Shown piece by piece: positions 12,057 to 23,101 of a stretch of DNA of 32,234 nt (position 1 is its first letter; each line of letters starts with the position of its first letter). The notes under the pieces are model-generated. The model ran no database searches and was not told the DNA's origin. It saw only the letters and a list, made by a program, of their open reading frames with translations. The stretch is from assembly GCA_900299345.1 (NCBI GenBank), contig OMJM01000083.1:1-32234 (forward strand), in the 5' to 3' direction. The stretch is from a bacterium. Lineage in GTDB: Bacteria; Fibrobacterota; Fibrobacteria; UBA11236. Both the position numbers and the translations under genes were made by a program.

Positions 12057-13532
12057 GTGATTATGTCTCTGGAACAAACCCGTTCCCTTGCGGTGCGGGG
12101 CAATGTCATTCCACTCGTCCGGGATTTCCTCCCAGACTTGGAGACGCCCATTACGGCTTTGTTGAAACTCCGCAAAGCCGGCAGCCGCACCTTTCTGCTG
12201 GAAAGCGTTGAGATCGGCGAAAAGCTGGCCCGTTATTCTTTCCTCGGACGCGATCCACTGTACGTCTTCCGCGCCCGGGGCCGCAAAATCGAAATTCAAG
12301 GAAAGGAATCCCGCTCTTTCGAAGGCGATGCGCTGGCGGAGTTCCGTTCCTTTCTCTCGCGCTTCAAGGGCGTCGAGGACGCGGATCTTCCCGCCTTCGC
12401 GGGCGGCGCTGTGGGTTTCTTCGCTTACGATGCCATCCGCTTGATGGAAAAAATTCGCGCACAAGGCCGCGATGATTACGGTCTGAACGATCTCGACTTC
12501 GGCGTTTACGAAGCCTTCGTGGTTTTCGATCACCTGAAGCACCGATTGCGCATCGTCGCCAACGTCATGCCGGATGAATTTGGCGGAATCGAACCTGCTT
12601 ACAAGCGCGCGGTTGGCTTGATCGATTCGTTGGAGAAAGAGCTTCGTTCTGCTCCAAGCAGCCCGCCCATTCTTTCCAATGGAAAAACCGGCGGATTGGA
12701 ATGGAAGTCCAATGTGACGCGGGAACGCTATCTCACGGGCGTGACCCAATGCCAGGAATACATCAAGGCGGGAGATGCCTTTCAGATCGTTCTGTCGCAA
12801 CGCTTCGAGGCCAAAACCTCCTCGGATGCAATTTCGATCTATCGCCATCTGCGAAGCATCAATCCTTCACCGTACATGTATTACCTCGACTACGGAAATT
12901 GCGAGATCGTGGGCGCTTCACCGGAAACGCTCGTGAAGGTTCAGAACGGACTGGCGGAAACCAAACCCATCGCGGGCACACGGCCGCGCGGCGCGGATGA
13001 AGCCACGGATAATGCGTTGGCCGATGAATTGTTGAAAGACCCAAAAGAGGTTTCCGAGCACATCATGCTTGTTGATTTGGGCCGGAACGATCTAGGACGT
13101 GTTTGCTCCTATGGCAGTGTGCACGTGCCGCAGTTCATGCAGATCGAGCGCCTGAGCCACGTCATGCACATCGTGTCCATCGTGCGCGGCCAGTTGAAAG
13201 AAGGCGCGCATTCGCTTGATGCACTCATGTCGTGCCTTCCTGCGGGCACGCTTTCCGGAGCACCCAAGATTCGCGCCATGCAAATCATCGACGATCTGGA
13301 ACCCACACGCCGCGGCATTTACGGCGGTGCGGTATGCTATCTCGATTTCCGGGGAAACTTCGATTCCTGCATTGCCATTCGCACCTTGCTGCTCAAGGAC
13401 GGGATCGCGTATGTGCAGGCAGGCGCTGGCATCGTGGCCGAGTCCGTTCCCAACACCGAATACGAGGAAACCAAACACAAAGCGCGCGCTGCCATGCTGG
13501 CCGTTGAAATGGCGTCGGGTGGCGCAACATGA
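12057..13532 (+). CDS. trpE: Anthranilate synthase component I
   Basis: TrpE makes anthranilate from chorismate with ammonia supplied by TrpG, the first committed step of tryptophan synthesis. The 491-residue product has the Trp feedback-site motif LLES near residue 48, [16 protein letters not shown], and the chorismate-binding C-terminal half with [46 protein letters not shown] and YGGAVCYLD. Start: GTG 12057 has GGAG eight bases upstream; ATG 12063 is the alternative. Its stop overlaps trpG as ATGA. With only 46 bases to the divergent subtilase gene, there is no room for a trp leader peptide, so control is likely by feedback inhibition or a repressor. Confidence 0.97.
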
Positions 13533-14098
13533 TCCTGTTCCTCGACAACTACGATTCGTTCACATACAACCTTGTCCAATACCTGGGCGAGATGAATCCC
13601 GATCTGCGCGTGGTGCGCAACGACCAGATGACGGTGGCGGAAGTGCTGAAGCTCAAGCCCTCGCATATCGTCGTGTCCCCAGGTCCCTGCACGCCCGCCG
13701 AAGCTGGCATTTCGATCCCATTGATTCAAGCCGTACCGAACTCCATTCCCCTGCTCGGCGTGTGCCTTGGCCATCAATCCATCGGCGCGGCCTTCGGCGG
13801 AGTTGTGAGCCGCGCTCCGGCACCCATGCATGGCAAGACGTCGGTGATCGAAACCAACCAACGTGACCTATTCGCGGGTTTGCCCAGGACTTTCACGGCC
13901 ACGCGCTACCACTCGCTGATCGTGGAACGCGCCGGGCTGCCCGCGGAACTGGAAATCACCGCCAGCTGCGGCGATCTGATCATGGGACTGAAGCACAAGA
14001 CACGACCCGTGTATGGTGTGCAATTCCATCCGGAATCGATTCTCACCGAACACGGCAAGGCGATGCTTCGCAATTTTCTGGCGATGAAAGGGTCGTGA
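13529..14098 (+). CDS. trpG: Anthranilate synthase component II (glutamine amidotransferase)
   Basis: TrpG releases ammonia from glutamine for TrpE. The 189 residues form a class I glutamine amidotransferase with [16 protein letters not shown] at the start, [13 protein letters not shown], the nucleophile Cys in [11 protein letters not shown], and the His-Glu pair in [13 protein letters not shown]. It is not fused to TrpD. In some bacteria such a subunit also serves para-aminobenzoate synthesis (PabA); nothing here decides whether it is shared. The ATG overlaps the trpE stop (ATGA), giving tight coupling, and trpD begins one base after its stop. Confidence 0.97.
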
Positions 14099-14099
14099 C

Positions 14100-15116
14100 A
14101 TGGACACCGCGCTGTTGGGCAAACTGATACGGGGCGAGAACCTCGCCTTCTCCGAAATGGAATCGGCGATGGATTCCATCATGGAAGGCAAGTCCACCCC
14201 GGCGCAAATCGCAGGCTTCCTGATCGCGTTGCGCATCAAGGGTGAAACGCCTGAAGAAATCGCCGCGGCCGCGCAAACCTTGCGCTCCAAGGCTGTCATC
14301 GTTCCGGTCATGCGTCCGAATGTGATCGACACCTGCGGCACCGGAGGTGATCACAGCGGTACGTTCAACATCTCCACCGCCGCCGCCATCGTGGCCGCGG
14401 CCGCCGGAGCCGCAGTGGCCAAGCACGGCAACCGCGCCATCAGCAGTCGCTGTGGTAGCGCCAACGTGTTGCAAGAACTGGGTGTGAACCTGGAACTGAC
14501 TCCGGAGCAGGTCGGCGCCTGCATCGACAAACACGGCATCGGATTTCTCTTCGCACCAAAACTCAACCCTGGCATGAAGCATGTGGCCGGTCCCCGGCAG
14601 GAACTGGGTCAGCGCACGATTTTCAATGTGATGGGTCCTTTGCTCAACCCTGCGCGCGCCAAGCGGCAGGTGATGGGTGTTTTTGATAATAACCTGACGC
14701 GCGTGCTCGCCGAAGTTTTACAGCGGCTGGGATCGGAACACGTGCTGATCGTGTCCGGCACGGACGGGCTCGACGAGATCAGTCTGTGCGCCCCGACCAA
14801 AGTGGCGGAATTGAAGAACGGTTCAATCACCGAATACATCCTGAATCCACAAGACCTCGGCTTCTCGCTGGCCACTCCCGCCGATCTACTTGGGGGAGAT
14901 GCACCGCAAAACGCAGCCATTCTGCGCGACATCTTCAACGGTGCCAAAGGTCCCAAACGCGACGTAGTGGCGCTCAATGCGGCAGCCGCGTTGTACGTAT
15001 CCGGCGTGGCGTCGAACCTGAAAGACGGCGTGGCCAAGGCCCGTCAGGCACTGGATTCCGGTGCGGCGAAGGCGACCTTGGAGGCGTGGGTCGGATTTTC
15101 CAACAACCCTTCCTGA
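14100..15116 (+). CDS. trpD: Anthranilate phosphoribosyltransferase
   Basis: TrpD transfers phosphoribose from PRPP to anthranilate. The 338-residue product has the helical N-terminal domain with STPAQIAGFLIALRIKGET, the PRPP-binding motif DTCGTGGDHSGTFNIST (about 79-95), KHGNRAISSRCGSANVLQ (about 109-126), GPRQELGQRTIFNVMGPLLN, and the metal-site region SGTDGLDEIS. It is full-length. It sits one base after trpG and three bases before trpC in a single operon. Confidence 0.97.
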   Translation: MDTALLGKLIRGENLAFSEMESAMDSIMEGKSTPAQIAGFLIALRIKGETPEEIAAAAQTLRSKAVIVPVMRPNVIDTCGTGGDHSGTFNISTAAAIVAAAAGAAVAKHGNRAISSRCGSANVLQELGVNLELTPEQVGACIDKHGIGFLFAPKLNPGMKHVAGPRQELGQRTIFNVMGPLLNPARAKRQVMGVFDNNLTRVLAEVLQRLGSEHVLIVSGTDGLDEISLCAPTKVAELKNGSITEYILNPQDLGFSLATPADLLGGDAPQNAAILRDIFNGAKGPKRDVVALNAAAALYVSGVASNLKDGVAKARQALDSGAAKATLEAWVGFSNNPS

Positions 15117-15119
15117 TTC

Positions 15120-15911
15120 ATGGAAGACATCCTCTCGCAAATCATTCAGCGCAAGGCCGGACGCCTGTCCGAGCGCAAGAAGCTGTTGCCTCCCGTGGAG
15201 GCCGAGCAGCAGGCACGGGTGATGCCGCCGCCACGCTTCAACCTGTTGCAAATCTTGAAGAGCGCGGCCCCAAGCGGGATCCATGTCATCGCCGAGGTGA
15301 AAATGGCTTCACCGTCCAAGGGCATCATCCGCGAGGACTTCAAACCGCTGGAGATTGCGGAAGCCTATGCGCGCGGAGGAGCCTCGGCTCTTTCGGTGCT
15401 GACGGAAGAGGATTTCTTCCTCGGTTCAGATGAATACTTGCGTGAAATTTCCGCGACCGTCGCCTTGCCGACCTTACGCAAGGATTTTCTCACGGATCCG
15501 TATCAGGTCTTCGAGGCCAAATTGCTGGGAGCCTCGGCGTATCTTCTGATCGTCGCCTGTCTGGAACCTTCCGTTCTGCGTGACCTGATCGCGTTGGGTC
15601 AGGATATCGGCCTCACGCCGCTGGTGGAAGCACACGACGAACGTGAAACCGAAATCGCGTTGACCGCCGGAGCACCGCTCCTAGGCATCAATAACCGCGA
15701 CCTGCGCACATTCAACACCACACTCGATACGACGACGCGGTTGCGCAAGCTCATCCCTTCCGGCATTCCGCTGGTGTCCGAATCCGGCATCTTCACGCGC
15801 AACGACGTGCTGCGGCTGCAGGCCGAGGGCTCGCAGGCCATTCTCGTGGGCGAAAGCCTGATGCGGGAAAACGACGTGTCCGCCAAGCTGCGCGAACTTC
15901 TCGGCGCATGA
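15120..15911 (+). CDS. trpC: Indole-3-glycerol phosphate synthase
   Basis: TrpC closes the indole ring to give indole-3-glycerol phosphate. The 263-residue TIM barrel shows IAEVKMASPSKG (57-68, catalytic Glu59 and Lys61), SVLTEEDFFLGS, LRKDFLTDPYQ, the catalytic Glu in PLVEAHDE, LGINNRDLRTF, and the phosphate site VSESGI and VGESLM. It is monofunctional: no TrpF is fused. Its stop overlaps the phosphatase gene start (ATGA). trpF, trpB and trpA are not in the window, so the pathway must be completed elsewhere. Confidence 0.97.
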   Translation: MEDILSQIIQRKAGRLSERKKLLPPVEAEQQARVMPPPRFNLLQILKSAAPSGIHVIAEVKMASPSKGIIREDFKPLEIAEAYARGGASALSVLTEEDFFLGSDEYLREISATVALPTLRKDFLTDPYQVFEAKLLGASAYLLIVACLEPSVLRDLIALGQDIGLTPLVEAHDERETEIALTAGAPLLGINNRDLRTFNTTLDTTTRLRKLIPSGIPLVSESGIFTRNDVLRLQAEGSQAILVGESLMRENDVSAKLRELLGA

Positions 15912-16378
15912 CTCGCCTTTTATTTGTTTGCATGGGAAACATCTGCCGCTCGCCGCTGGCGGAGGGGATTTTCCTGCACCTTGCCGCGCAAAGCGGACAA
16001 CGGGATCGCTTCGAGGTGGATTCCGCTGGCATCGGCGATTGGCACGTAGGCCATGAACCGGATCCCCGTTCACAGGCTGTGGCGAACAAACACGGCATCA
16101 CGCTCGTCTGCCGCGCACGGCAAATCGAATCGCCGGAGGATTTCGAGAACTTCGATCTGCTGCTGGCCATGGATCGCCAGAACCACAGAGATTTGATTTC
16201 GCTATCGCCGTCGGAGCATCAGGGGAAAATCCATCTCATGCGGGAGTACGATCCCGAAGGCGGGAACAAGGCGGAAGTTCCGGATCCATATTACGGTGGC
16301 CCGCGCGGATTTGATGATGTTTATCAGATGCTTTATAGGTCTTGTGAAAAATTGCTGGAGGATTTGGTAAAGCGATAA
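15908..16378 (+). CDS. Low-molecular-weight protein-tyrosine phosphatase
   Basis: A 156-residue cysteine phosphatase of the LMW family. The P-loop CMGNICRS lies at residues 8-15 with the nucleophile Cys8 and phosphate-binding Arg14, and the catalytic Asp is in DPYYGG (about 125-130). Family helices such as SPLAEGIF and FDDVYQML are present. These enzymes dephosphorylate phosphotyrosine on proteins, often exopolysaccharide kinases, but no kinase or polysaccharide gene is nearby. The start overlaps the trpC stop by ATGA, so it appears to be the last gene of the trp operon. It ends 26 bases before the convergent rapA stop, with no obvious terminator hairpin between. Confidence 0.93.
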   Translation: MTRLLFVCMGNICRSPLAEGIFLHLAAQSGQRDRFEVDSAGIGDWHVGHEPDPRSQAVANKHGITLVCRARQIESPEDFENFDLLLAMDRQNHRDLISLSPSEHQGKIHLMREYDPEGGNKAEVPDPYYGGPRGFDDVYQMLYRSCEKLLEDLVKR

Positions 16379-16404: not shown

Positions 16405-19197
16405 CTACATCCCCATCTTCCCCATCAACACCAACCTCACCGCATCGAGACGCAACTCCGCCTGCGCAATATGCCGCAGGACTTCGTCCGCATGCCGCCC
16501 GGCGGCATCGACTTCCGCGTCGGAGACGGCCGGGTTCATGGCCTGAAGATCCCGCAGGCGATCCCGTTCCGCGATGAGCCGACGTCCGGCTTCCTGATGC
16601 ACCGACTTCTTCACCGAGGCTTCCTTTAACGCAGCCTGTTCCCGCGCCGCGTCGAGCAGTTTCGGAACCAGCTCCTCGAAGAGAGTGTGATGCTCCTCGA
16701 GCAACAAGGCCGAGGCCATGTCCGGTTCCGCCGCGTCCATTGCCGCCAACAGTGAGATCAGATTCTCGCCCTTGTCGTTCACCAGCACTCGGATCGGCGT
16801 GGGTGGCAGAAAGCGATCGATATGCAACGCGCCCGGAGCCGCAGCTTCGAGCAGAAACACGGCCTCCAATGCAAGGCCGCGCTTGGGCGCTGAAACCCAC
16901 TCCACGAACCCCGTGGTTCCATCCTCGCCTTCCAGCAGTAGATCCACCGCCGATCGCACCAACGGGTGATCGATGGAGGCGAACGCCAGATCCTCGTGCG
17001 TCAATGCCGCGCCGCGATCATAGGTAAGGCCCAGACCCGATTCCGGAATTCCGGGAAAGGTATCGAGCAGCATGCGCTCGCCGGGAAACACGAACTGGCC
17101 GCGCGGCACGGCCGTGTCCTGCACGTCGAGGCCGAAATGATCGAATACCTCGGTGAGATATTCCTGCAGCGCTTCGTTCCCATCGCCCTCGTGGATCTCC
17201 GCGATGAGATCCGTGGCGAGATCAGATTTATTGCTGTTGAGTTCCAGCAATCGATCCCTCCCCTTCTCCAAAGTCTCCCGCACTCGTTGCACCAGTTCCC
17301 GGGTTTCCTCGAGCAAATTCTCCAGAAGATCGGAGGATTCACACGCGGCAAGAAGTTTTCCAATCAACGCCTCGTGGAAATAGTCCGCGCCCAGCACGGT
17401 GTCCTGGAAGGCATTGATGCCCTCATGATACCAGCGGAACACGACTTCGTGCGGCGTGCTGCGCAGATACGGAATGTGGATGTGGATATCGCTTTTCTGC
17501 CCGATGCGATCCAAGCGCCCGATGCGCTGCTCCAACACACTGGGATCGAGCGGCAGATCGAACAACACCAGATGATGCGCGAATTGGAAGTTGCGTCCCT
17601 CGCTGCCGATCTCCGAGCAAATCAGCAGTTGCGCGCCGTCGGGCTGGGCGAAATACGCCGCGTTACGGTCGCGCGTCGTCATGGTGAGGTTTTCGTGGAA
17701 CGACGCAAACGTAGCCGTGGTCAATGTCGGCAGTGCTTCCTGCAAGGCGAATACCACGGACTTGTGCGCGCACAACAGCAGCACCTTTTCGTCCGAATGC
17801 TCCTTGAGAAATTCCACCAGCCACAGCAAACGCGGATCGCGGGGTGGAACCTGCGACATGACCTGCACTGGATCAATTCCCGCATGTTCGGATCCGGGCT
17901 CCAGCGGCACGGGATGGACGATACGCTTGGGAAATCCACCCAAAGCCTGACGCCGGTTACGGAACATCATGCGTCCGGTGCCATGGCGATCCACCAAATC
18001 CTCGATCAATTTTTCAAGCGATCCGGGTTTCCGATCCAGATATTCTGACACACGTGACTGCAACGCCGCGTCGCCAGGAAACGCTTTTCGCAAACCTTGC
18101 GCGATTTCGGCTTGCGGCTCCACGGAAGAAAGCAAACCATCCGCCAAAACCGCAATTTCTTCGTACCGCTGGGTTTCCGCGAGATAGGCATTGAGATTAG
18201 AGAATCGATCCGGATCGAGCAAGCGAAGCCGCGCAAAATGACCGGCCTGCCCCAATTGGATCGGTGTGGCGGTAAGCAGCAAAACACCGTTCGCAGCTGC
18301 CGCCAGTTTTTCCACCGCTGCATATTCAGGCGAGGATTTTTCCGCAGACCACTGCAAGTGATGTGCTTCGTCCACAATCAATAGATCGATCCCGGCAGCA
18401 ACGGCTTGTTCCACCCGGCGCGGTGACGCGGCGAGAAAATCCACAGCGCACAAAACCGTCTGGCGATCTGCAAAAGGATTTTTCGACGAATCCCCTTTTT
18501 CCTCGGCGCGGCAGAGATCCTCATCCAACACGGTGAACATGTGGTTGAAACGACGGTACATCTCCACCAGCCATTGGTGCACGAGCTGCGACGGTGCGGC
18601 GATGAGTACGCGACGGGCCTGTCCTGTGACGTGCAATCGATGGAAAATGAGGCCGGCCTCAATGGTTTTTCCGAGTCCCACCTCGTCCGCCAGCAACACA
18701 CGAGGACGGTGACGCGACGCCACCTCATGCGCAATGGACAACTGGTGCCGCAGCAGTTCCATGCGCGAACCCGCGAGGCCGCGCACGCGCGACCCCAGCA
18801 TTTCACGACGGAATTCCTGCGTGCGCAACCGCAACGCAAACGCACGCGGCTTGCCGACCTGTCCCGCGAGCAGGCGCTTGTCCGGATCGGAGAAACTCAT
18901 GCGGTCGAGCAGTTGCTGTTCGGGCAAAGTTTCGGTGTGGCCGCAATAGGTGAGCAGACCTGCGCTTTCCTTCACCTCGCGCACCACGAACACCTGTCCG
19001 TCGCGGCCGCGGGCGCGATCCCCGGGACGGAGCCGTGCCCGACGCAGCGGAGCATTGCGATGCATGTATACGCGGATTTCACCGGCCGCCGCAAAGCGAA
19101 TTTTCACATCGCGGAAGCCGGTTTCAAGAACCTCGCCCAGTCCAAGTTCGGGTTCGCTGTCGCTGACCCAGCGCTGGCCGGGGATGAACTTGTTCAT
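16405..19197 (-). CDS. rapA: RapA-like SNF2/Swi2 ATPase (RNA polymerase recycling factor)
   Basis: RapA binds RNA polymerase and uses ATP to remobilise stalled or post-termination complexes. The 930-residue product matches the RapA plan. It has N-terminal Tudor-like domains beginning FIPGQRWVSDSEPELGLGEV, then HQLSIAHEVASRHRPRVLLA. The helicase core has Walker A DEVGLGKTIEAG (about 170-181), DEAH box VDEAHHLQWS (about 275), TATPIQLGQAGHFARLRLLD (about 309) and motif VI EQRIGRLDRIGQ (about 550). A long C-terminal RapA-specific region follows. Length is close to E. coli RapA (968). Its ATG overlaps the leuA stop (ATGA), so it appears to be co-transcribed with leuA behind the leucine attenuator, an unexpected partnership. 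Confidence 0.92.
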   Translation of the reverse strand: MNKFIPGQRWVSDSEPELGLGEVLETGFRDVKIRFAAAGEIRVYMHRNAPLRRARLRPGDRARGRDGQVFVVREVKESAGLLTYCGHTETLPEQQLLDRMSFSDPDKRLLAGQVGKPRAFALRLRTQEFRREMLGSRVRGLAGSRMELLRHQLSIAHEVASRHRPRVLLADEVGLGKTIEAGLIFHRLHVTGQARRVLIAAPSQLVHQWLVEMYRRFNHMFTVLDEDLCRAEEKGDSSKNPFADRQTVLCAVDFLAASPRRVEQAVAAGIDLLIVDEAHHLQWSAEKSSPEYAAVEKLAAAANGVLLLTATPIQLGQAGHFARLRLLDPDRFSNLNAYLAETQRYEEIAVLADGLLSSVEPQAEIAQGLRKAFPGDAALQSRVSEYLDRKPGSLEKLIEDLVDRHGTGRMMFRNRRQALGGFPKRIVHPVPLEPGSEHAGIDPVQVMSQVPPRDPRLLWLVEFLKEHSDEKVLLLCAHKSVVFALQEALPTLTTATFASFHENLTMTTRDRNAAYFAQPDGAQLLICSEIGSEGRNFQFAHHLVLFDLPLDPSVLEQRIGRLDRIGQKSDIHIHIPYLRSTPHEVVFRWYHEGINAFQDTVLGADYFHEALIGKLLAACESSDLLENLLEETRELVQRVRETLEKGRDRLLELNSNKSDLATDLIAEIHEGDGNEALQEYLTEVFDHFGLDVQDTAVPRGQFVFPGERMLLDTFPGIPESGLGLTYDRGAALTHEDLAFASIDHPLVRSAVDLLLEGEDGTTGFVEWVSAPKRGLALEAVFLLEAAAPGALHIDRFLPPTPIRVLVNDKGENLISLLAAMDAAEPDMASALLLEEHHTLFEELVPKLLDAAREQAALKEASVKKSVHQEAGRRLIAERDRLRDLQAMNPAVSDAEVDAAGRHADEVLRHIAQAELRLDAVRLVLMGKMGM

Positions 19198-20777
19198 CCT
19201 ATCAACCGGTTCATCCCGTTGAACAACGCCTTGACGTTGGCCTTGATCGTATCCTTGTCCTTGCCACGCCCGATGGCCACAGGACCTTCGGGTGGGTTGC
19301 CGGAACCGGACTTGCGCTGCAGCTTGATTTCGGACAGCGCATAAGCCGCGAAATCGAGATGCTCGATGTCCACCGCATGCTGGGCGTATTCGATCAGATG
19401 GAAATACAGTCCGATGCTTTCCACCGCATGCATGCAGGCATCCACCGGACCGGTTCCCCGGCCGATCAAGGTTTGTTCCTTCCCCTTCCAGCGGACATCA
19501 AAGGAAAATTGCTTCTCCTCCGGGTTCATCTCGTCGGGAGTGACACGCAACGCCTTGAACTCCAGCGCGCCGGTAGTGGCCAGCAACACCTCATCATAGG
19601 CCCGCACCAAATCCGCATCCGCCAACTCGCCCTGCTTCTCCTCGGAGATCTTCTTCAGCACCGGCTGGAGTTGCGCGGCTTCTTCCACGGTGATGGGCAG
19701 ACCCAAACCCTGGATGATCTCATGCACCGCCGCCTTGCCCGACTGGCTGGTGAAAACCAGCTTGTCCGACTCTTTGCGGCCGATCAAGTCGGCTTCGAAG
19801 GCGCGATATGCCCCCTTCTTCATGCCCTTGGTCTTGGCCGCGCCGTCCTGATGGATGCCGCTGCGATGCGCCACTACGTCGGACCCGACCAGCGGAGCCT
19901 TTTCGTAAATCGGCACGCGTGACCATTCGGAGATCAGCAACGCGGTCTCGTAAATCTCCTCCATGTTCAAACCCGTGTCGATTCCGCAGTTGTGCAGCGA
20001 CACCGCGACCTCATACATGTTGGTGTTGCCTGCGCGCTCGCCCAAACCGTTCAAGGCGCATTCCAGCTGCGTGGCTCCGGCGAAGAAACTCTCCACCGTG
20101 GTGGCTGTGGCCATGCCCAAATCGTTATGAGTATGCACTGCGATGGTGATGTGTTTCGGCAACGCCGCCACAACCTGATTCACCATGTCCACGAACACCA
20201 TGGGACGATAGCGCTCCACCGTGTTGGGCAGATTGATCACCGTGGCCCCTGCCGCGATCACGGCCTGAAAAGTCTCGATGACGAAATCCATGTTGTCGAC
20301 GCAATCGCCGAAATGCTCCGCCGAGAACTGGATGCTGCCGCGCCCGTTCATCAACTTCTTAATCAAGGCCACCGAATCGACGGCGCGTTTCTGCACCTGA
20401 TCCGGCGTCATGCGCAACACGTGCTCCATGTTGTACTCGGACGTGGTGATGAAGGTGTGAATACGCGGATTGGGCGCGTGCTTCACTGCCTCCCACGCCC
20501 GCTCGATGTCGCGTGGCACGGTGCGGGCCAGGCTAGAAATCACCACATTCTCCGGACCCATTTTGGCCAGATGCTCCACAGCGACAAAATCCATCTCGCT
20601 CGCCCCGGCATAGCCCACTTCGATGCCCTGCGCGCCCAGTTTCAGGAGCTGGCGGAATACCCGCTCCTTCTCGTGGAGATCCCACGGGTGGCGCAAAGCC
20701 TGATTACCGTCGCGCAAGGTGACGTCGTAGAAAAAGGGCTGTCTTCCCGTCTTTGCTGTCTGTTCACGCCCATTCAT
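19194..20777 (-). CDS. leuA: 2-isopropylmalate synthase (LeuA-type)
   Basis: LeuA condenses acetyl-CoA with 2-ketoisovalerate, the committed step of leucine synthesis. The 527-residue product has the catalytic barrel with FFYDVTLRDGNQALRHPWDL (15-34), GIEVGYAGASEMDF, HTFITTSEYNMEHVLRM, the metal-binding AVHTHNDLGMAT and NGLGERAGNTN, and HRSGIHQDGAAK. The C-terminal LeuA allosteric domain (about 395-525) has ATTGALEFKALRVTP and GRGTGPVDACMHAVESIG. Citramalate synthase is the main alternative, but the RDGNQAL type with this C-terminal domain and the leucine-rich leader peptide favour LeuA. The ATG has GAGAGGAG six bases upstream. rapA overlaps its stop. Confidence 0.88.
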   Translation of the reverse strand: MNGREQTAKTGRQPFFYDVTLRDGNQALRHPWDLHEKERVFRQLLKLGAQGIEVGYAGASEMDFVAVEHLAKMGPENVVISSLARTVPRDIERAWEAVKHAPNPRIHTFITTSEYNMEHVLRMTPDQVQKRAVDSVALIKKLMNGRGSIQFSAEHFGDCVDNMDFVIETFQAVIAAGATVINLPNTVERYRPMVFVDMVNQVVAALPKHITIAVHTHNDLGMATATTVESFFAGATQLECALNGLGERAGNTNMYEVAVSLHNCGIDTGLNMEEIYETALLISEWSRVPIYEKAPLVGSDVVAHRSGIHQDGAAKTKGMKKGAYRAFEADLIGRKESDKLVFTSQSGKAAVHEIIQGLGLPITVEEAAQLQPVLKKISEEKQGELADADLVRAYDEVLLATTGALEFKALRVTPDEMNPEEKQFSFDVRWKGKEQTLIGRGTGPVDACMHAVESIGLYFHLIEYAQHAVDIEHLDFAAYALSEIKLQRKSGSGNPPEGPVAIGRGKDKDTIKANVKALFNGMNRLIG

Positions 20778-20859
20778 GGGTCGCTCCTCTCTTTTGTCCC
20801 GTGGGTTACCGGCTCGCTCTTCGCGTCCGGATTCCGAATCCCCGGGAGGGCCCCCAATG

Positions 20860-20891
20860 AAAAAAGCCCACTCCGGGGAGTGGGCTTTTTT
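20860..20891 (-). terminator. Attenuator terminator of the leuA leader
   Basis: On the minus strand, GCCCACTC-CCCG-GAGTGGGC (20885-20866) is followed by TTTTTT. It lies between the leucine leader peptide and leuA, about 80 bases before the leuA ATG. Its 5' arm (CACTCC) can instead pair with GGAGTG just after the leader-peptide stop (20907-20902). A-tracts on both sides would also allow function in the plus direction. Confidence 0.85.
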
Positions 20892-20910
20892 CCAAACGCG
20901 TCACTCCTCC

Positions 20911-20967
20911 CTAGCCAAGATGGCTAAGCAGAAGTCCCAGAGCGTTCATCGGGGTCACGAATGACAT
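20911..20967 (-). CDS. Leucine leader peptide (leuL-like attenuator peptide)
   Basis: An 18-codon frame, MSFVTPMNALGLLLSHLG then TAG, lies between a promoter and an intrinsic terminator upstream of leuA. Five codons are Leu (CTG, CTT, CTG, CTT, CTT), four of them within five consecutive codons. The last six codons and stop can form the hairpin TAGCC-ATCTT-GGCTA (20926-20912). This is the classic layout for ribosome-mediated attenuation: when charged Leu-tRNA is scarce the ribosome stalls in the Leu cluster, letting the antiterminator form. The ATG at 20967 lies six bases after the -10 box, so it may be translated from a leaderless mRNA. The inner ATG (codon 7) is an alternative start. Confidence 0.75.
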   Translation of the reverse strand: MSFVTPMNALGLLLSHLG

Positions 20968-20973
20968 GCCCTT

Positions 20974-21003
20974 ATGATACATAATCACGCCGAGGCGTGG
21001 CAA
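20974..21003 (-). promoter_or_regulatory. leuA leader promoter with palindromic spacer
   Basis: On the minus strand, TTGCCA (21003-20998), 18 bases, then TATCAT (20979-20974); each box is one mismatch from consensus. The spacer and the end of the -35 contain the palindrome CACGCC-TC-GGCGTG (20999-20986), which could be an operator or a weak terminator stem for the upstream gene. The predicted start is at the leader-peptide ATG. Confidence 0.6.
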
Positions 21004-21008
21004 GGGGG

Positions 21009-21743
21009 TTAAAACGCCAGCGCGAGGCGCATTCCGCTGAAATCGGGGCTGATCAACGGATCGAAATGAAGGCCAATACCTTTGCCGCTAGTGCGCCGGT
21101 ACACGCGAAGAGTGTGGGCAATGGCCACCACGCGATTTAAGGCCAGCGCGCCCACGGCGAACGACATTGCCACGTTGGCCCCGCGATAATACCGCATCAC
21201 AGATTGGAACTCGCGCCAACGCGCTGTGTTCTCCGGTGAGCTTGAACTGCCGAAATCCCAGGTATTGCCCTGCGCTGACACATCGTATTGGCCATTGCGA
21301 ACGCCGGAGATTACTTGCGTCAATTCATAGCTGTCCTGACGGTGCTCGTATTCCTCATACGAACGGTAGCTGGCAAGATTTTCAAGGTAAGCCGCGCTCT
21401 TTCCCGAAGCGTCCACACCTGAAAATTCCGAGGCGTAATTACGGCCTGATTGCAGATAGCTTTCCCGCACCTGCCACGCGACGAACAGGCTGGCCCAGAA
21501 CCCAACCTCGACGAGAACAAAATTCCGCGCGCTTTTATTTTCGCGAAGATAGGCTTCGCCCGTACCGGGAAGCACTGCAGAGCCGAGCAAAGCCAAACCC
21601 AGTGATTTATCCTTGTTGGCGGTCTGGGAAGAGTCGACCTCGATCGTGATTTCCTTGGACGGCACGCCGAAGGATTCCGGACCGGACTGCGACCAGACAG
21701 ATATGGCGGCCAGCAAGATCAAAATGGAAATAACACGGATCAT
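21009..21743 (-). CDS. DUF5683-like secreted/membrane protein B
   Basis: A 244-residue protein of unknown function. It has a signal peptide (MIRVISILILLAAISVWS, cleavage likely before QSGPES). Two hydrophobic segments follow (about residues 50-67 with LALLGSAVLPGTGEAYL, and 75-93 FVLVEVGFWASLFVAW), then a Tyr/Ser-rich soluble stretch (about 97-180), and a third helix with GANVAMSFAVGALALNRVVA. The pattern (G-x-A-VLPGTGEAY, long loop, helix ending NRVVAIAHTLRVYRR) parallels its upstream neighbour, so the two look like diverged tandem paralogues. ATG 21743 lies two bases after the neighbour's stop, indicating an operon. A start at 21785 would lose the signal peptide. Confidence 0.7.
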   Translation of the reverse strand: MIRVISILILLAAISVWSQSGPESFGVPSKEITIEVDSSQTANKDKSLGLALLGSAVLPGTGEAYLRENKSARNFVLVEVGFWASLFVAWQVRESYLQSGRNYASEFSGVDASGKSAAYLENLASYRSYEEYEHRQDSYELTQVISGVRNGQYDVSAQGNTWDFGSSSSPENTARWREFQSVMRYYRGANVAMSFAVGALALNRVVAIAHTLRVYRRTSGKGIGLHFDPLISPDFSGMRLALAF

Positions 21744-21745
21744 GA

Positions 21746-23101
21746 TCAGAACGACAACGTGGCCTTCATCATCGTGCGCGGCCACCCCTGTTCGAAAACC
21801 AGTCCGCCGTCGACATTCAAACGATCATACCACGCGGACTCCGTCTCGTAAAGTTTTCGGTTGTAATGCCGCGCCGTCAGTGCGGCATCCAACGCCGAGG
21901 CGATGTGGTTGATGACGATGCCGCCCACGAACCAGGCCTGCATGCGGGAATATTGATTGGCCTTGGCGCGCATGGAGATGTACTCGTCACGGAAATCGCT
22001 AGTGCCCGCGAAACCGGAATCCTTGTCGAAAGCCACGTTCTTCGCGTCCCGCCAGCCGGCGATGAATTCCTGATCCTGCCCGATCATTTCGTAAAAAGCA
22101 TAGGGGTCCGGGAACGCCGCACGAATGGCGTGGTTGGTATCCGGATTCGTGGTCTCACGATTGTGGACGTACTGGCTGAATGAGGCATAGTCGGCCGGAT
22201 CGCCAGTGGGATCCTTGCAACCGTTGTAATAGGTCACTCCCGTTCCGGTGGCCTTTTCCTGAACGGCATCGCAGTAATTCTTCCGGGCGAATTCGCGCTC
22301 ATCGGTGCCCTTCACGCTACCGGCGCTGGCTTCATACTTGTCCTGGCTCCAGTTGGCATCCGCGAATGACCGGTACTTGCTCACTTGGCGATCATGCTTG
22401 ACCACCACGTATTCGTACCAGAAAGCTCCCAACACAATATCGGTGCTGAAGTAGATGGCGGCGCGAGAATAGGTGAATACGCTCTGCCCCACATAGGCCT
22501 GTCCCAACCCCGGAACCAGCAACGACATGAACAAGGCCCTCTTGGGACTCCGGTATTTTCCCTTCTGGCTGATAGAATTGATGTTGGTTTCTCGAACCAC
22601 CTTTGTACGCGGTTTGGGGACACTATCCGCAGCAACAGTCGGAGATGGGGTTGGTGCGGAAGGCGCAACGATGGCAGGTGTTACAACCGCTGCCGGAGAC
22701 TTGACGGAATCCACCTTGACTTTGGAAACCGTGTCCTTGACCGGCACACTTTCTTTTTTAGCAGCAACGATGGACTTCTTGACTGACGTATCCGGTTTCA
22801 CGGCTGCTTTGGCAGTTGTATCCTTCGGGGCCGCAATCTTCTTCTTCAGAACCGTCGTATCCTTCACGGCCTTCGGCTTGGAGATTTTCTTGGGAGCCGC
22901 CACCGTGTCGGCTTTGGGTTTGGCCGCAACAGGTTCCGCAGGTTTGGGAGCAGGCTTTACAGAATCGGCCTTGGAAGGCATGGAGACGCCATACGGATCA
23001 TCATCTGCCGTGCCTTGTGCAAAGGGCATGGATATGAATGGCAGGGATACAACCCCGACGAAGAGCAGTAAACGCAAATAAAACCCCGTTTTCGGGGTCA
23101 A
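21746..23101 (-). CDS. DUF5683-like protein A with long Lys/Pro/Ala-rich linker
   Basis: A 451-residue envelope protein of unknown function. After a signal peptide (about residues 1-29, possible cleavage PFA/QGTAD), residues 34-175 are low complexity: Lys, Ala, Pro and Val with recurring DTT, DTV and DSV units. That looks like a periplasm-spanning linker. Next comes the DUF5683-like core SPKRALFMSLLVPGLGQAYV (about 187-206), two hydrophobic helices, a soluble loop (about 240-370) and a final helix with FVGGIVINHIASALDAALTA. The start is TTG whichever codon is used; TTG at 23077 (MRLLLFVGVV) is the main alternative. A terminator-like hairpin (23097-23084) covers the beginning of the frame. It follows dapB and is coupled to its paralogue downstream. 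Confidence 0.7.
   Translation of the reverse strand: MTPKTGFYLRLLLFVGVVSLPFISMPFAQGTADDDPYGVSMPSKADSVKPAPKPAEPVAAKPKADTVAAPKKISKPKAVKDTTVLKKKIAAPKDTTAKAAVKPDTSVKKSIVAAKKESVPVKDTVSKVKVDSVKSPAAVVTPAIVAPSAPTPSPTVAADSVPKPRTKVVRETNINSISQKGKYRSPKRALFMSLLVPGLGQAYVGQSVFTYSRAAIYFSTDIVLGAFWYEYVVVKHDRQVSKYRSFADANWSQDKYEASAGSVKGTDEREFARKNYCDAVQEKATGTGVTYYNGCKDPTGDPADYASFSQYVHNRETTNPDTNHAIRAAFPDPYAFYEMIGQDQEFIAGWRDAKNVAFDKDSGFAGTSDFRDEYISMRAKANQYSRMQAWFVGGIVINHIASALDAALTARHYNRKLYETESAWYDRLNVDGGLVFEQGWPRTMMKATLSF
23080..23097 (-). terminator. Terminator-like hairpin at the start of the DUF5683-like gene A
   Basis: On the minus strand, CCCCG-AAAA-CGGGG is followed by TTTTATTT. It lies 43 bases after the dapB stop but overlaps the first codons of the next gene. 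It could terminate dapB, in which case the real start of the next gene is downstream, or it could control that gene. Confidence 0.5.

Follow-up and report, generated by a model that had tools for sequence, protein, structure and literature searches.

Attenuation by leader peptides is an established mechanism in Proteobacteria and Actinobacteria; according to a survey of 2010, it had been shown in no other group before the Firmicutes case presented there (PMC2965389). Among the systems closest to the one described here, Streptomyces lividans carries leaderless Leu leaders before leuS (LeuL2) and leuA (LeuL1), of which LeuL2 has an intrinsic terminator behind it and LeuL1 lacks a typical one (PMC8079986), and the actinobacterial LEU element likewise stands before leuA (PMC1262725). 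The ilvB leader of Corynebacterium is a three-hairpin attenuator (PMC11857589) and is leaderless in C. diphtheriae (PMC5784534), and a leucine-rich attenuator peptide is reported for the branched-chain operon of Staphylococcus aureus (PMC5794164). Our literature search found no report of attenuation with a leader peptide in Fibrobacter or Fibrobacterota, although its coverage was incomplete and such an absence is weak evidence; the mechanism that we propose here is classical, and in Fibrobacterota it appears not to have been described before.

The window, the whole stretch of 32,234 nucleotides that was analysed, is contig C83 of a metagenome genome (2.24 Mb, 91 contigs) from the phylum Fibrobacterota, class Fibrobacteria. 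Upstream of its leuA gene, which encodes the first enzyme of leucine synthesis, lie the elements of what we are highly confident is a ribosome-mediated transcription attenuator sensing charged leucyl-tRNA; they and the neighboring genes are as follows.

21009 to 21785, minus strand: upstream gene, uncharacterised protein without a match in Pfam or NCBIfam.
20998 to 21003, minus strand: −35 element TTGCCA (sequence, consensus scan); most relatives have CTTGC or CTTGT at the equivalent place.
20974 to 20979, minus strand: −10 element TATCAT (sequence, consensus scan), six bases ahead of the leader ATG.
20911 to 20967, minus strand: leader peptide frame MSFVTPMNALGLLLSHLG followed by a stop codon (translation), with its predicted start at +1.
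20922 to 20935, minus strand: arm 1, ACTTCTGCTTAGCC, holding the Leu codons CTT CTG CTT (folding).
20903 to 20916, minus strand: arm 2 of the 1:2 hairpin, GGCTAGGGAGGAGT, within which lie the stop codon of the leader and the larger part of the antiterminator 5′ arm (folding).
20902 to 20907, minus strand: antiterminator 5′ arm GGAGTG, 3 to 8 nt past the leader stop codon, pairing with CACTCC.
20877 to 20899, minus strand: remainder of the antiterminator (folding), with the 3′ arm CACTCC at 20882-20877.
20860 to 20891, minus strand: intrinsic terminator A6-GCCCACTC-CCCG-GAGTGGGC-T6, 14 pairs (sequence, folding).
20784 to 20790, minus strand: Shine-Dalgarno sequence AGAGGAG of leuA (sequence).
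19194 to 20777, minus strand: leuA, 2-isopropylmalate synthase with a LeuA allosteric domain (NF042434, 593.7 bits against a cut-off of 500; HMGL-like and LeuA_dimer domains).
16405 to 19197, minus strand: rapA (NF003426, 988.4 bits against a cut-off of 576; synteny), overlapping leuA by 4 bases (ATGA).

The window also contains, on the plus strand at 12064-16378, trpE, a second gene (13529-14098, probably trpG), trpD, trpC, and then a low-molecular-weight phosphatase-like gene; we saw no leader or attenuator before trpE, where there is no room for one.

In its layout the locus resembles leuL of enteric bacteria (RF00512, Proteobacteria), with a run of Leu codons, arms predicted to pair as 1:2, 2:3, and 3:4, an intrinsic terminator, and a position ahead of leuA, but the two have no sequence relation, the leader studied here lacks a ribosome-binding site, and the unit is much shorter. 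A search of Rfam found no family at its cut-off, and at E values of up to 10 there were only sub-threshold matches to other leaders, one of which, to Thr_leader, fell on both strands owing to the palindromic terminator. RF00512 (Leu_leader) itself scored 16.6 bits on the opposite strand against a cut-off of 50, and the locus does not match that family. With the actinobacterial leaders it shares the Leu richness and, by prediction, the leaderless character and, with LeuL2, the intrinsic terminator; yet phylum and sequence differ, and the actinobacterial leuA leaders, which may adopt a pseudoknot, have no terminator of the typical kind, whereas leuA here has a complete terminator and antiterminator. 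The Corynebacterium leader is leaderless, as the one here is predicted to be, with a three-hairpin attenuator and a role in branched-chain amino acids, but it regulates ilvB rather than leuA or cimA, and ilvB has no leader in family f1. In S. aureus, leucine codons are likewise reported to control branched-chain synthesis by attenuation; that system differs in belonging to a Firmicute, in controlling a branched-chain operon, and in having CodY as a second regulator.

The original prediction, made from the letters of the window, had named most of these parts, and every one that it named is where it was placed. Translation confirms the 18-codon frame at 20967-20911 (minus strand; ATG at 20967-20965) with its five Leu codons (CTG CTT CTG CTT CTT), the promoter TTGCCA-18-TATCAT has its coordinates right, with a spacer of 18 nt, and the arm GGAGTG (20907-20902) is indeed complementary to the CACTCC of the terminator at 20882-20877. 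Two structures were underestimated. The hairpin proposed over the last codons (20926-20912) is present but belongs to a longer 1:2 hairpin spanning 20935-20903, in which 20935-20922 pairs with 20916-20903 through 13 pairs and one G.G mismatch (z −2.6), and in which the Leu codons CTT CTG CTT pair with GGGAGGAG. The terminator, taken to be an 8-bp stem with six T (20885-20860), was correctly located, its core GCCCACTC/GAGTGGGC lying at 20885-20866 and its T6 at 20865-20860, but it actually extends to 14 pairs because A6 (20891-20886) pairs with T6; the 12 pairs that were folded give −18.6 kcal/mol (z −5.2), a value reached by 0 of 200 shuffles. Folding makes this terminator and the antiterminator mutually exclusive. 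The latter gains additional pairs between GC (20899-20898) and GC (20885-20884) and between TTT (20896-20894) and AAA (20889-20887), and this pairing of GC and TTT with the 5′ side of the terminator accounts for the strict conservation of GCGTTT...AAAAGC. Across the 11 members of family f1, 100% of the cells are paired in the terminator and 95% in the antiterminator; for the 1:2 hairpin, counted within f1 only, 76% are kept in the register used, the register being variable and the covariation weak, and in f2 this hairpin is not recognisable by folding. On these foldings, the pairings 1:2, 2:3, and 3:4 form the classical attenuator set. The antiterminator 5′ arm starts at +3 nt from the first base after the stop codon in the window and between about −24 and +7 nt across the regions compared, so that a ribosome at the leader stop codon could reach it, while one stalled at the control codons would leave it free.

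Taken alone, five Leu in 18 codons is unremarkable, and it is conservation across the class, not the statistics of the window, that makes the Leu-rich leader certain. The class Fibrobacteria offered 73 leuA upstream regions long enough to judge, and 66 of them, from 13 of 15 genera and from families f1, f2, f3, and f5, have a Leu-rich leader, terminator, and antiterminator; f1 contributes all 11 of its members and f3 nine genera, and f2 and f5 have it too. The finding that had been named as capable of refuting the idea, relatives that keep leuA without the frame, was looked for and concerns the remaining seven regions, which lack the leader: six in genus g14 (L038, L040, L043, L045, L046, and L047) and one in g12 (L049), where leader and terminator were either lost or never present. 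In the other classes of the phylum, the leader is absent from the LeuA homologues (about 35% identical). One genome, G006, has two leuA copies (L007 and L035, on contigs C121 and C33), and a separate Leu leader with attenuator precedes each of them. The leader sequences are highly divergent, as in MSKAHAQLLLLGLSG, MRKTLNLLLLLSIATEARF, MCYRNLLLSLTFIRF, and MQVKTGALLLLGLLTELDGGLR, with the Leu codons, terminator, and antiterminator kept.

Evidence for the antiterminator also comes from its two arms, 2 and 3, which covary across families. They change jointly, from GGAGTG/CACTCC in f1 to GAAGCG/CGCTTC or GGAGCG/CGCTCC in most of f3; all six pairs are kept in 55 of 59 scored regions, and two of the six swap GC for AT on both sides. 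Within f1, whose arms hardly vary, the covariation is weak and provides no evidence, so that we relied on tests across families: the arm 2:arm 3 duplex exceeds that of dinucleotide shuffles with a Fisher combined p of about 8e-14, an indicative value, as the 24 representatives are not fully independent. The f1 representatives taken alone do not reach significance in this test, as their arm 2 is rich in GC and hardly varies. A further indication lies in codon choice. CTA makes up 36 to 37% and CTT 38 to 45% of the Leu codons in the leaders; in the leuA genes, CTA accounts for about 0 of about 1,245 Leu codons and CTT for 2 to 12%. The use of a rare codon at the control site is consistent with a sensor of tRNA charging, and E. 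coli leuL also uses rare CUA codons.

The placement of the leader ATG at the predicted +1, which the original prediction had listed among the possibly new points, is supported as a prediction by comparison with relatives. Judged from the window by itself, the promoter match lacks significance, since the consensus scan gave 4 matches in 10 kb where 2.9 were expected. When the best −10 box was sought in the 30 bases before each of the 66 leader ATGs, however, its distance to the ATG was 6 to 7 nt in 58 of them, a spacing at which transcription would start (+1) on the A of the ATG, and none of the 66 leaders has a Shine-Dalgarno motif, compared to 64 of 66 in the 45 nt upstream of leuA. We therefore describe the leader of the leuA attenuator as a conserved, predicted leaderless frame.

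Could these elements be explained differently? The terminator might merely end the upstream gene (21785-21009), the short frame being a chance open reading frame; this gene stops 118 nt ahead of the terminator and is the neighbor of leuA in most of f1. Yet the unit stays with leuA in L006, in L010, and in all f3 genomes, where tblastn did not find the upstream neighbor, and the Leu-rich frame, the rare CTA codons, and arm 2 are retained along with leuA. That the unit is conserved along with leuA whether or not the upstream gene is there refutes this explanation, to which we assign next to no probability. It is slightly less improbable, but still very hard to credit, that a regulatory protein, a riboswitch, or a T-box, rather than a translating ribosome, runs the switch. 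Alternative hairpins by themselves do not reveal what moves them, and the actinobacterial leuA leaders are partly nonclassical; against this stand the failure of any Rfam family to reach its cut-off, the maintenance of Leu codons and reading frame while the nucleotides of the leader diverge, and the copy before cimA, which carries Ile codons instead.

A milder alternative accepts the attenuator and has its leader translated from a short 5′ untranslated region that measures between a few and about 15 nt and lacks a Shine-Dalgarno sequence. Our start sites derive solely from the −10 box, and in a few relatives the gap widens to 8 to 14 nt, which leaves this reading some room, but the gap of 6 to 7 nt in the large majority of leaders makes it unlikely, if clearly less so than the two preceding explanations.

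Leucine attenuation of leuA, as originally proposed, is thus the reading that we favor: the identity of the codons, the preference for a rare one, the three alternative structures, and conservation throughout the class all support it. What the sequences themselves show is the set of parts, how these can pair in alternative ways, how they are conserved, and the biased codon usage; from this we infer that the promoter is used, that transcription starts at the predicted +1, and that stalling, termination, and read-through occur. RNA polymerase would start on the A of the leader ATG or on an adjacent base, and a ribosome would load on the leaderless start codon. When leucine is plentiful, the ribosome would reach the stop codon and cover arm 2 (GGAGTG), the antiterminator would be blocked, and the 14-pair terminator would halt transcription ahead of leuA. 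When leucine is short, a ribosome stalled on CTT-CTG-CTT would cover arm 1 and leave arm 2 free for arm 3, and the resulting antiterminator would let the polymerase continue into leuA and, here, probably into rapA too. If no ribosome is present, the 1:2 hairpin would lock arm 2, allowing the terminator to form.

As to rapA, the suggestion that RapA is placed under leucine control is the least secure part of the original prediction. The gene does overlap leuA here, but the adjacency is not conserved beyond genus g1: by tblastn, rapA lies near the downstream end of leuA only in the four genomes of this genus, with an overlap in the window and gaps of 9, about 200, and about 980 nt in the others, and it was not found downstream of leuA in g2, f2, or f3. 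The gap of about 980 bp, in the closest relative (L031, 4570-5551), holds an open antisense frame of at least 200 codons. Since the adjacency occurs in a single genus and is close in two of its four species, any leucine control would be a local matter that we only infer; control of RapA by read-through is possible in the genome of the window.

A covariance model built from the f1 leuA leaders recovered, from the genomes that were searched, the leuA copies of f1 and also matched upstream of the citramalate synthase gene cimA. The remaining matches were mostly plain terminators. The leader frame before cimA reads MKSTLAIRIIITPPGSGL in the genome of the window and MESTKHTFRMGQLIRIISPLRSGL in a congener, with an antiterminator and terminator of like type behind it, and similar Ile-rich leaders precede cimA in the other readable f1 genomes.

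G000 contig C47, 34872 to 34964, minus strand: Ile leader of cimA (locus L125; also L131, L143, L157, L159, L163, L164, and L202, family f1).

Citramalate synthase feeds isoleucine, and the Ile codons of its leader thus indicate that codon identity follows the pathway product. In most relatives, the ATG of the cimA leader lies 6 to 7 nt behind a −10-like box. The Ile leader is absent from the cimA genes examined in Fibrobacteraceae (f3, L165-L219). There, cimA itself looks leaderless, with the Shine-Dalgarno motif missing in 36 of 37 and, in most, a TAxxTT box 6 to 8 nt before the ATG, so that leaderless initiation may be common in the lineage. The upstream regions of ilvB, ilvD, and leuC were also searched for attenuators and none was seen, so that only the committed steps of branched-chain synthesis seem to be attenuated. 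In the titles and abstracts searched we found no relevant report of cimA with leader-peptide attenuation, which seems not to have been reported previously.

The attenuator before leuA is well supported by these comparisons, and its points of interest are the conserved predicted leaderless initiation and the isoleucine counterpart. We lean, by a modest degree, toward the broader view that leaderless leader peptides are the standard form of attenuation for committed branched-chain steps in Fibrobacteria, Leu at leuA and Ile at cimA, in a phylum that may use leaderless initiation widely; the loading of a ribosome on the 5′ end as it emerges would then form part of the timing of the switch. If the leader is leaderless, the first ribosome must load on the emerging RNA without a Shine-Dalgarno site, a form of transcription-translation coupling that would be directly testable in the culturable genus Fibrobacter. 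On this reading, leader-peptide attenuation would extend to Fibrobacterota, where two branch-point enzymes would share one architecture that differs in its codons, Leu at leuA and Ile at cimA, and its sequence signature may serve the annotation of start sites and small proteins in this phylum.
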